Positions 55,227-59,606 of a stretch of DNA of 60,821 bases are shown here, one piece after another (the stretch's first letter is position 1; each line of letters begins with the position of its first letter). Source of the DNA: Desulfobacula sp. (GTDB lineage: Bacteria > Desulfobacterota > Desulfobacteria > Desulfobacterales > Desulfobacteraceae); NCBI RefSeq assembly GCF_030145145.1, contig NZ_JAQYWD010000042.1, positions 1 through 60,821 on the forward strand, read 5' to 3'. The notes under the pieces were generated by a model. It worked only from the letters and a program-made list of their open reading frames with translations. It made no database searches and had not been told where the DNA came from. The translations under genes were made by a program, and so were the position numbers.

Positions 55227-58200
55227 TTGGATAATATATACGATTTCTTCGCAAAACCAAAAGATCCTAAGATTTATCAGGGCGTTCAAATCAGCCTTGC
55301 ATCTTCAGACCAGATTAGAGAGTGGTCTCATGGTGAAATCAAAAAACCGGAAACCATCAATTACCGAACATTTAAACCAGAAAGAGACGGACTTTTTTGT
55401 GCAAAGGTGTTTGGTCCGACCAAGGATTACGAATGCAATTGCGGTAAATACAAACGCATGAAACACCGCGGGGTTGTCTGTGAAAAATGCGGTGTGGAAG
55501 TGATCCAGTCAAAAGTGCGTCGGGAGAGAATGGCGCATATCGAATTGGCGTCTCCGGTGTCCCACATCTGGTTTTTAAAAAGTCTGCCCAGCAAAATCGG
55601 CAATGTGCTGGATTTAACCCTGAAGAACCTTGAAAAAGTCCTGTATTTTGATTCTTATCTGGTGATTGATCCCAAGGACACGGGGTTGAAAAAACTGCAG
55701 CTGCTGTCCGACGATCAATATTATGAGGCGTTGGAAGCGTTTGGTGATGAGTTTGAAGCCGGTATTGGTGCAGAAGCCATTTTAAAATTACTGGAAGAGA
55801 TTAATCTTCAAGAGGTGCATGATGAGCTGAAACAAGATATCAGCCTGACCAATTCCGTTGCCAAGAAACAAAAGATGTCCAAACGCCTTAAAGTGATTGA
55901 CGCGTTTTTGAATTCCGGGATCGAGCCCACCCGAATGATTTTGACGGCCTGCCCCATTTTGCCGCCGGATTTAAGGCCCCTTGTCCCCCTGGAAGGCGGA
56001 CGGTTCGCCACATCTGACTTGAATGATCTGTATCGACGGGTGTTAAACCGCAACAACCGGTTAAAACGGCTGGTGGATCTGAATGCCCCGGATATTATCG
56101 TCAGAAATGAAAAAAGAATGCTCCAGGAAGCCGTGGATGTTCTGTTTGATAATGGCCGCCACGGCAGGGTGGTGACGGGGACGAACAAGCGGCCCCTAAA
56201 ATCATTAAGTGACACCTTAAAAGGCAAACAGGGACGCTTCAGGCAGAATCTCCTGGGGAAACGGGTGGATTACTCCGGTCGTACCGTTATTACCGTTGGT
56301 TCGGAACTGCGGCTTCATCAATGCGGTATTCCGAAAAAGATGGCCCTGGAATTGTTCAAACCCTTTATTTATAATTATCTGGAACAAAAAGGCCTTGTTT
56401 CAACAGTCAAAAGTGCCAAAAAAATGGTGGAACGGGAAGAGCCCGAGGTTTGGGATGCCCTTGAATCGGTTGTAAAAGAATATCCGGTCATGCTCAACCG
56501 TGCCCCCACGCTTCATCGCCTGGGGTTTCAGGCATTTGAGCCGGTCTTGATCGAGGGGAAAGCCATCCAGCTCCATCCGTTGGTCTGCCCCGCGTTTAAT
56601 GCTGATTTTGACGGTGATCAGATGGCGGTTCACGTTCCGCTTTCCCTTGAGTCTCAGCTGGAAGCAAGGATCATGATGCTGTCGACGAACAATATCCTGT
56701 CTCCGGCAAACGGCCAGCCCATCATTGTTCCGACCCAGGATATTGTTCTGGGTATTTATTACATGACCCGGGCGGTGCGGCATCAAAAGGGCGAAGGGGT
56801 CATATTTTCAGGTATTGAAGAAGTCAGATATGCCTTTGATGCCGGAGAACTGGCGCTTCATGCCAAAATAAAAGTCCGGATTGATGGTGAAATATACGAT
56901 ACGTCTACGGGACGGGTTCTCCTCTGGGAATCCATTCCCGGTGATACGCTTCTGTCCTTGACCCGGATCAGGACACAAACCCTGGAATATTGTGAAGCGG
57001 CAATGGACGAATTAAAAGCCGGCAAAAATTTTGATAAGGTTTTAAAAAAGTATTCTGATGACGAAATTAAGAAAACCAAAGGCAAAACCGATCTGTTGAC
57101 CCGGAAGGAATTTAAAAACATCTTCCAGGTGTCTGAGATTGTCGTCGAACAGCTGTATGGATTGAAAAAAGATCAGTTTACAGACATCAGAAAAGTGGGG
57201 AACTATTATACCATTTTTAAAGTCGATGAACGGGAAACCACTCTGCCGTTCACGCTGGTTAACAAGCTGATGGACAAGTCTTCCATCGTAAAATTGATTG
57301 ACTATGCCTACCGGAATATCGGTTTGAAAGAAACCGTTATTCTGTCCGACCGGTTGAAGGATATCGGATATAAATATTCGACCCTGGGCGGACTGTCCAT
57401 TTGTGTGGATGATATGATTATTCCGGATGAGAAATGGACGATTATTGCCAAGGCAGAACAAAATATAGAAGATATAAAAGTCCAATATTCCGAAGGATTG
57501 ATCACCCAGGGAGAGAAATATAATAAGGTGGTGGATATCTGGGCCCAGGCAACGGATGATATTGCCAATGCCATGATGGAAGTGATGAAAAATCCCACAG
57601 GTGGCAAGAGTGAAGGGGCACCTGAGGAATATAATGCCGTGTATGTTATGGCAGATTCCGGAGCCCGGGGGAGTAAAGACCAGATGCGCCAGCTGGCTGG
57701 GATGCGGGGGTTGATGGCCAAACCTTCCGGAGAGATTATCGAAAATCCCATTACTGCCAACTTTCGGGAAGGCCTGTCCGTTCTTCAATATTTTATATCC
57801 ACCCATGGTGCCCGGAAGGGCCTGGCGGATACAGCATTGAAGACAGCCAACTCCGGCTATCTGACAAGACGTCTGGCCGATGTGGGCCAGGATTGTACCA
57901 TTGTTGAGCCCGATTGCGGGACCATTAACGGGATTGAGGTTGAAGCCTTGTACGAAGGGGGGGAGATCATTCAAACCCTTGGTGAGAGAGTCCTGGGCAG
58001 GGTTATTCAGGAGGATATACTGGATCCCTACTCAGATGAATTTATTGTTGGCGCGGATACCGAACTGACGGAAAGCCATGTGAAACAGATTGAAACAGCC
58101 GGTGTCCAGAAAGTTAAAATCCGTTCTGTTTTGACCTGTAACTCAAAAAATGGGGTCTGTTCCAGATGTTACGGACGAGACCTTGCCCATGGCGTCACCG

Positions 58201-59606
58201 TTGAAATCGGTCAGGCCATCGGTATTGTTGCGGCCCAGTCCATTGGTGAGCCGGGAACTCAGTTGACCATGCGGACCTTCCATATCGGTGGTACCGCGTC
58301 TAGAAAGGTTGAAGTGGCTGAAATCAAGGCAAGGGTCGGGGGAGTATTGAAGTACAATGACGACATCCAGACCGTTATTTCTGCTGAAAATGAAGTCATT
58401 GTCATGAACCGTAAGGGTGGTGGCATCACCATCATGGGAGAAGAAGGGCGTGAAAGGGCCAAGGAAACCGTGATTTATGGGGCAACACTTCATATTCAGG
58501 ATGGGCGGCAAGTGGAACCCGGGGATGTGATTGCCACATGGGATCCGTTTACCACGCCGATTATTACGGAAGTTTCCGGCAGAATCCGATTTGGAGATAT
58601 AGTGGTGGGTAATACCGTTCAGGAGCAGATTGACCCGGTAACAGGTAAGGTCTCCCGGACCATCACCGAAGGTAGAGATAGTGAAATCCGGCCCAGAATC
58701 AGTATTAAGGATAAAGAGGGCAAAGGGGTAAAATTACCCAATTCTAAAATGGCTGCCCGATATTACCTGCCGGTGAATGCCATTCTCACGGTTGAGGAAG
58801 ATGAACAGATCATGGCAGGCGATGTCATTGCGAAACTGCCCCGGGCCACAACAAAAACCAAGGATATTACCGGTGGTCTTCCCAGGGTTGCGGAATTGTT
58901 TGAAGTCCGAAAACCCAAGGATCCGGGTGTACTGACCGAGATTGACGGATATGTCTTGGTGTCCAAGGGGACAAAGGGCAGACAGAAAGTGACGGTTACA
59001 CCCACAGATGTGGGGGGCAGCAAAGAATACTCCATTCCCAAGGGGCAGCATGTCACGGTATATGATGGCGATTATGTTAAGGCGGGTGATCCGCTGATTG
59101 CCGGGAGTGCAAATCCCCAGGATATTATGAATATCAAAGGGGAAGTGGCATTGGCAAAGTATCTGGTGGACGAGGTCCAGGAAGTGTATCGGCTCCAGGG
59201 CGTCAGAATCAATGACAAGCACATTGAAGTGGTGATCCGTCAAATGATGAGACGGGTAAAAGTCATTGAGACAGGAGATACCAACTTTATACCCGATGAG
59301 CAGGTGGACAGAAATCATTTTGAAGACATTAATCGGGAAGTGGCCATGGCCGGAGGCGAACCGGCAAAAGGGGAACCCTTAATCCTTGGTATTACAAAAG
59401 CATCCCTGTCCACGGACAGTTTTCTGTCAGCGGCATCATTCCAGGAAACAACAAAAGTGCTGACCCTGGCTTCCATTGAAGGTAAATATGACAGTCTTAA
59501 AGGGTTGAAAGAGAATGTTATAATGGGCCGAATTATTCCTGCGGGAACCGGTTTTCCAGGGTATAGCGATGTCGAAGTCGAGCAAGTAGAAATGGTACAA
59601 GTTTGA
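55227..59606 (+). CDS. rpoC: DNA-directed RNA polymerase subunit beta' with a parvulin-like insertion
   Basis: The 1459-residue product starts at TTG with AAGGAG upstream. It has the N-terminal zinc site (CNCGKYKRMKHRGVVCEKC), the GKRVDYSGRTVI switch region, the catalytic NADFDGDQMAVHVPLS near residue 460, the rim helices (SEGLITQGEKYNKVVDIW), the bridge helix and trigger loop (GLMAKPSGEIIENPI, TRRLADVGQDC) and the second Cys cluster. About 100 residues (572-672) between VLLWESIP and LPFTLVNKL are extra compared with E. coli and read like a PpiC/parvulin domain: LKAGKNFDKVLKKYSDDE, KGKTDLLTRKEF, LKKDQFTDIRKVGNYYTI and FKVDE. The catalytic histidines of parvulins are replaced. Confidence 0.96.
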   Translation: MDNIYDFFAKPKDPKIYQGVQISLASSDQIREWSHGEIKKPETINYRTFKPERDGLFCAKVFGPTKDYECNCGKYKRMKHRGVVCEKCGVEVIQSKVRRERMAHIELASPVSHIWFLKSLPSKIGNVLDLTLKNLEKVLYFDSYLVIDPKDTGLKKLQLLSDDQYYEALEAFGDEFEAGIGAEAILKLLEEINLQEVHDELKQDISLTNSVAKKQKMSKRLKVIDAFLNSGIEPTRMILTACPILPPDLRPLVPLEGGRFATSDLNDLYRRVLNRNNRLKRLVDLNAPDIIVRNEKRMLQEAVDVLFDNGRHGRVVTGTNKRPLKSLSDTLKGKQGRFRQNLLGKRVDYSGRTVITVGSELRLHQCGIPKKMALELFKPFIYNYLEQKGLVSTVKSAKKMVEREEPEVWDALESVVKEYPVMLNRAPTLHRLGFQAFEPVLIEGKAIQLHPLVCPAFNADFDGDQMAVHVPLSLESQLEARIMMLSTNNILSPANGQPIIVPTQDIVLGIYYMTRAVRHQKGEGVIFSGIEEVRYAFDAGELALHAKIKVRIDGEIYDTSTGRVLLWESIPGDTLLSLTRIRTQTLEYCEAAMDELKAGKNFDKVLKKYSDDEIKKTKGKTDLLTRKEFKNIFQVSEIVVEQLYGLKKDQFTDIRKVGNYYTIFKVDERETTLPFTLVNKLMDKSSIVKLIDYAYRNIGLKETVILSDRLKDIGYKYSTLGGLSICVDDMIIPDEKWTIIAKAEQNIEDIKVQYSEGLITQGEKYNKVVDIWAQATDDIANAMMEVMKNPTGGKSEGAPEEYNAVYVMADSGARGSKDQMRQLAGMRGLMAKPSGEIIENPITANFREGLSVLQYFISTHGARKGLADTALKTANSGYLTRRLADVGQDCTIVEPDCGTINGIEVEALYEGGEIIQTLGERVLGRVIQEDILDPYSDEFIVGADTELTESHVKQIETAGVQKVKIRSVLTCNSKNGVCSRCYGRDLAHGVTVEIGQAIGIVAAQSIGEPGTQLTMRTFHIGGTASRKVEVAEIKARVGGVLKYNDDIQTVISAENEVIVMNRKGGGITIMGEEGRERAKETVIYGATLHIQDGRQVEPGDVIATWDPFTTPIITEVSGRIRFGDIVVGNTVQEQIDPVTGKVSRTITEGRDSEIRPRISIKDKEGKGVKLPNSKMAARYYLPVNAILTVEEDEQIMAGDVIAKLPRATTKTKDITGGLPRVAELFEVRKPKDPGVLTEIDGYVLVSKGTKGRQKVTVTPTDVGGSKEYSIPKGQHVTVYDGDYVKAGDPLIAGSANPQDIMNIKGEVALAKYLVDEVQEVYRLQGVRINDKHIEVVIRQMMRRVKVIETGDTNFIPDEQVDRNHFEDINREVAMAGGEPAKGEPLILGITKASLSTDSFLSAASFQETTKVLTLASIEGKYDSLKGLKENVIMGRIIPAGTGFPGYSDVEVEQVEMVQV

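Follow-up and report, generated by a model that had tools for sequence, protein, structure and literature searches.

Parvulin-type prolyl isomerases working on RNA polymerase are represented by Ess1 and Pin1, which act on the tail of RNA polymerase II. There the parvulin is a protein of its own and its target a phosphorylated tail, which bacteria lack, whereas the parvulin domain described here is built into the catalytic subunit itself. It is inserted into the beta' subunit (RpoC) of a Desulfobacula species, a member of the Desulfobacterales, which are anaerobic, mostly sulfate-reducing bacteria, and is encoded on a stretch of 60,821 nucleotides (NCBI RefSeq assembly GCF_030145145.1, contig NZ_JAQYWD010000042.1, positions 1 to 60,821 of the forward strand), in the following called the window. 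E. coli PpiC and human Par14 are single-domain free enzymes, while the domain in question lies within RpoC in a genome that has a free PpiC-like frame besides. The prolyl isomerase domain of the foldase PrsA (PF00639; B. subtilis 1zk6) belongs to a protein described as an extracytoplasmic lipoprotein (PMC2678132), in contrast to the internal insert of a polymerase subunit found here, and both active-site histidines of such a domain are gone from the inserts of the window's family.

The known beta' insertions (HABAS/SBHM such as SI3, BEAN, sLC) are likewise lineage-specific; they too are passed on together with their gene and have been lost from some lineages. HABAS, BEAN and sLC are the inserted beta' folds named in the available text of PMC11515920, whose authors excluded inserts of fewer than 50 residues; that text contains none of the words parvulin, isomerase or rotamase. 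An insertion place in the middle of domain bD4 is listed there, and the Desulfobacterales site seems, by the table of that paper and not mapped residue by residue, to be near the end of bD4. The split of the cyanobacterial subunit into rpoC1 and rpoC2 occurs at the same place, the junction being put before conserved region E (PMC10802570, in the text available), but it is a chain break with no inserted domain. No description of a parvulin or isomerase insertion in rpoC or RNA polymerase was found in the open-licence papers searched, in agreement with an earlier sequence-only reading of the window, which knew of none. What appears to be new is a lineage-specific beta' insert of a foldase family that the available text of PMC11515920 does not name.

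The window's RpoC is an intact full-length orthologue with the catalytic NADFDGD motif, present as NADFDGDQM. When it is aligned with E. coli RpoC, the match ends at E. coli residue 565 (window 566) and resumes at E. coli L587 (window 673), leaving 106 residues in the window against 21 in E. coli. This bears out the sequence-only reading that residues 572-672 (GDTLLSL...DERETT; 56940-57242) interrupt the subunit without an E. coli counterpart, and also that they precede, in sequence order, the residues that we take to form the rim helices. Repeats around the insert were looked for and none was found. The cyanobacterial models abut the insert, TIGR02387 matching up to residue 573 and the best stretch of TIGR02388 starting at 677, and the insert therefore stands where cyanobacteria split the subunit.

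The parvulin identity of the insert and its limits are supported by several kinds of evidence. The profile search and the structure prediction proposed in the sequence-only reading both came out in favour of a PpiC-like domain. PF00639 matches a 132-residue slice with 26.9 bits (E 1e-5), above the curated cut-off of 21.7, and the whole protein of 1459 residues with 21.8 bits (E 3.9e-4), only just above it. All seven inserts tested from relatives exceed the cut-off, the best with E 4e-13, and an E value of 0.01 or better is reached by 10 of 13 family members and 63 of the 64 rows of A2. With PF00639, six-frame scans of 38 genomes picked up the RpoC frame of 10 (E 1.8e-11 in G046, 2.3e-9 in G049); in the window's own genome, scanned at E 0.001, the RpoC copy was not reported. 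A profile of standalone parvulins, mildly circular as its domains were picked and aligned using the insert profile, scores the window insert at 50.4 bits, as compared to 7.9 bits for the highest of 700 shuffles (634 reported) and 1.0 bits for the highest of 24 other RpoC tiles (20 reported). The predicted fold is the beta-alpha3-beta-alpha-beta2 arrangement of parvulins, and the match to RPOC_hybrid lies elsewhere in RpoC (best stretch 1173-1204). A good structural model leans on the sequences of relatives, the AF2 model of the window insert from its single sequence being poor (mean pLDDT 52.9). One could argue from this poor model, from the copy unreported in the genome-wide scan and from the narrow excess of the window copy over the Pfam cut-off (5.2 bits as a slice, 0.1 bits in the whole protein) that the resemblance is convergent or a profile artefact. 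This is highly improbable, as profile, fold and active-site pattern concur, and convergence or chance was rejected on the matches of relatives, the fold, the six-frame scans and the shuffle and tile controls.

The insert occurs throughout the Desulfobacterales and is not peculiar to the window organism, as the alignment across the order that the sequence-only reading had called for confirmed. Two overlapping draws of genomes were used, and every genome of the second, drawn from the class, belongs to the window's order. The RpoC slice found a match in 49 of 58 close genomes, of which 45 have the insert (43 of them in one piece, the other two being G019 and G040), three lack it (G039, G052, G056) and one is uninformative (G021). 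In the class draw of 147 genomes, 138 matched, 129 of them with the insert in one piece, four without it (G052, G056, G068, G110) and five split or partial (G062 and G097, both with the insert, and G098, G116 and G166). It is absent from all 23 RpoC of the same phylum outside the order, hand-picked from 284 genomes among the matches listed, in which a single residue falls into the insert columns, so that it is no ordinary RpoC element. Phyla other than that of the window are covered solely by a scan of 84,980 species, and the best 80 of its 203 relatives, chosen by likeness to L035, are titled Desulfobacterales, Desulfobacteraceae or Deltaproteobacteria, with single titles Thermodesulfobacteriota, Proteobacteria, Olavius symbiont and genera including Desulfatitalea, Desulfococcus and Desulfosarcina. 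Some sequences are unusual in length at the site. L163 (G062) has an insert of 165 residues with flanks instead of the usual 138; in L208 (G097), which also belongs to family f29, the open frame of RpoC runs to 1635 residues and includes unexplained extra sequence; and the insert-less L183 (G323), outside the order, has an unusual longer loop, another sign that the site is tolerant.

How much of the parvulin active site is retained? Equivalences to Pin1, with residue numbers that we presume to be those in common use, were set by eye from alignments of Par14 and the inserts (Table 1). Counts were made on 140 distinct inserts, 42 from the window's family (the 42 loci of family f1, recognized by the motif GDxLL) and 98 from other families, which lean to the type of L035; L031, L049, L080, L087 (no frame found), L126, L160 (start motif not found) and 12 duplicates had been dropped, and L050 and L051, which have no insert, were left out. 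In the other families 79 of 98 inserts keep both histidines, seven only the second, six only the first and six neither. Neither histidine occurs in any insert of the window's family, the first place being Arg in 41 and Cys in one, and the second Thr in 33, Asn in eight and Tyr in one; the replacements by Arg and Thr noticed in the sequence-only reading are thus R580 and T662. Since most sampled sequences of other families keep the pair, the form without histidines looks derived, and the loss may have been stepwise, as among the family's neighbours in the tree L038, L041 and L070 keep the first histidine without the second and L045 keeps both. In the other families an apparent coupling between the losses of the first and the second histidine has a raw Fisher p of 0.001, but the starred branches of the tree provide only one independent pair. 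Outside the window's family the two histidine places rank 11th and 12th and the pocket phenylalanines 7th and 10th in conservation among 99 positions. The places of Met130 and Phe134 are Phe in all 42 family sequences, and the place of Pin1 Cys113 is Asp in 20 and Glu in 12 of the 42, Asp (D612) in the window insert. A block of 13 residues, chosen after looking, is nearly fixed in this family, with a mean entropy of 0.55 bits as compared to 1.46 bits elsewhere in the insert. The histidine pair of Pin1 is described as structural rather than catalytically essential (PMC2678132 and PMC6557836, in the text available), so its loss alone does not exclude activity. Of the earlier suggestion that the domain binds without catalysis, the replacement of the histidines therefore stands, and the absence of catalysis does not follow from it, all the more as D612 is kept.

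Table 1. Features of the rpoC gene and its inserted domain, in window coordinates
Feature	Position	Strand	Basis or remark
rpoC, RNA polymerase beta' subunit, 1459 residues, TTG start	55227..59606	+	open reading frame list; TIGR02386 1724.5 bits; Pfam Rpb1 domains 1-5
Conserved RpoC flank before insert, TSTGRVLLWESIP	56901..56939	+	RpoC without the insert has a similar motif
Inserted parvulin (PpiC-type) domain, RpoC residues 572-672	56940..57242	+	
R580, place of first active-site histidine (Pin1 His59)	56964..56966	+	R in 41/42 family sequences; H in 85/98 of other families
D612, place of Pin1 Cys113 / Par14 and PrsA Asp	57060..57062	+	aligned with Asp of Par14
Residues 624-636, LTRKEFKNIFQVS, nearly invariant block of the window's family	57096..57134	+	entropy; block chosen after looking
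F629, F633, places of Pin1 pocket residues Met130, Phe134	within 57096..57134	+	Par14 alignment
T662, place of second active-site histidine (Pin1 His157)	57210..57212	+	T, N or Y in 42/42 family sequences; H in 86/98 of other families
Conserved RpoC flank after insert, LPFTLVNKLMDKSSIVKLIDYAYR	57243..57314	+	E. coli L587 = residue 673 by alignment
K598/K599 counterparts, RpoC residues 684-685	57276-57281		alignment

The history of the insert was followed in a tree of the RpoC core (85 rows, insert columns removed). The insert-less L049 (G039) splits first within the order (99% SH-aLRT) and all insert-bearing rows fall into the other branch (99%), among which the insert-less L182, L051, and L050 with L181 are nested. 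The best tree implies one gain and three losses, four changes in all, of which the starred branches alone force one; the count of losses therefore depends in part on poorly supported forks. For L182 (G068) the loss is also backed by a scar, as this sequence retains 'PRDNI' and 'KRPEIPF', resembling both ends of its neighbours' insert, and by five members of its genus (G057, G067, G106, G141, G148) that have the insert in one piece. The insertion thus most likely happened once, early in the history of the Desulfobacterales. A recent horizontal insert is unsupported, since presence follows the core tree despite the lower G+C of the window insert (0.396 versus 0.477 for the rpoC gene). Within the genus the insert is under purifying selection, its ratio of non-synonymous to synonymous substitution rates (dN/dS) being 0.018-0.093 (computable in 11 of 16 rows) next to 0.018-0.045 for the core (14 rows); the core values of 0.12 and 0.11 in L010 and L022 probably stem from ungapped alignment, and dS is near saturation.

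What might such a domain do in RNA polymerase? From the site, the active-site pattern and data on E. coli we infer that the insert is kept as a tethered foldase that would bind prolyl peptides and act on a partner encountered at the polymerase, a reading to which we assign a probability of about 0.55. A parvulin domain would have been inserted, most likely once and early, at a tolerant site of beta' where the cyanobacterial subunit is split, and, being fixed to the polymerase, would meet its clients at once, whether these are transcription factors or subunits of the polymerase as it assembles. Where the histidine pair and the pocket aromatics are kept, as in most sampled families, it would probably be an isomerase or else act as a slow prolyl clamp. 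For the window's family, in which the histidines are replaced, the two pocket phenylalanines stay and the block LTRKEFKNxFQVS is nearly fixed, the most likely role of the domain is to bind one specific segment while isomerizing it little or not at all. More tentatively, and with the odds rather against so far-reaching a version, a built-in prolyl isomerase of the whole order could act on polymerase-bound factors or on the polymerase, tuning elongation, stringent control or assembly, and could in one family have been recast as a sequence-specific receptor of proline segments with a newly fixed recognition helix.

Several observations weigh against a tethered foldase of single origin. Lineages that lack the domain survive, so RNA polymerase as such can do without it, and the window's genome encodes a free PpiC-like frame, 113 residues long. 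Neither group of inserts has the complete textbook set of active-site residues: 91 of the 98 sequences of other families carry Ser, Gly or Ala at the place of the catalytic Cys or Asp, and 41 of the 42 of the window's family carry Thr at the Leu122 place. Between genera the insert outpaces the core (68-77% versus 87-91% identity, eight rows), with an insert dN/dS of 0.14 computable in two of the eight rows. Some copies erode: L048 is barely recognizable (14.9 bits), and in L030 (G026), one genus of the window's family, a Ser-rich low-complexity stretch replaces the first insert helices, as if eroding. A tree of the insert domain alone puts all inserts on one side in just 1% of bootstrap trees; with few columns, long branches and the free-standing row L179 beside the family clade, it neither shows nor excludes a single origin.

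The losses, one with a scar, and the eroding copies would also suit a domain that was inserted by chance into a tolerant loop and is kept for packing, shielding or stabilizing the polymerase without any clients, the more so as cyanobacteria split the subunit at this site (TIGR02387 to 573, TIGR02388 from 677; PMC10802570, in the text available). We regard this as unlikely, since a mere scaffold would have no need to fix a block of 13 residues, the active site ranks among the best conserved parts of the insert in the other families, and selection within the genus is purifying. Less likely still is a regulator at the secondary channel that gates or senses GreA, DksA or ppGpp without any folding activity. 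The insert ends 11 residues ahead of K684, the counterpart of E. coli K598, where in E. coli a helix starts that runs between ppGpp site 1 and the tip of DksA in the secondary channel, connecting the two; K599 lies by the DksA tip (PMC7676912, in the text available). At the K599 equivalent, 30 of the 42 sequences of the window's family have Ser, versus Lys in 68 of 98 elsewhere, and one GreA-type and two DksA/TraR-type genes score above cut-offs in the genome. However, this closeness to the channel is one of sequence order only, and a pure gate would leave the conserved prolyl pocket and the histidines unexplained.

Two further candidates found no support. A loss of secondary-channel factors as in cyanobacteria is at odds with the GreA-type and DksA/TraR-type genes, and the presence of a free PpiC-like frame speaks against the insert simply standing in for a free PpiC that the genome lacks. 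This free frame lies within 9 kb of a PpiD-like frame of 659 residues (G000:C64:55027-55254, G000:C64:63989-64270; L002, L001). The surroundings of rpoC are those of the usual operon, with upstream frames resembling secE, nusG, rplK, rplA, rplJ, rplL and rpoB and downstream frames resembling rpsL and rpsG (named by eye). Weak Pfam matches in the window's RpoC to peptidase M23 (1164-1206) and the cytochrome f C-terminus (1245-1291) agree with the kinship of HABAS described in PMC11515920, in the text available.

A foldase domain inside the catalytic subunit departs from the pattern of HABAS, BEAN and sLC insertions set out in the available text of PMC11515920. If the domain does act as a tethered foldase, the insert would physically link protein folding or signalling by proline switches to transcription across a large bacterial group. 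Inserts that keep the histidine pair, inserts that have lost it and lineages lacking the domain form a natural comparison set, by which its role is directly testable.
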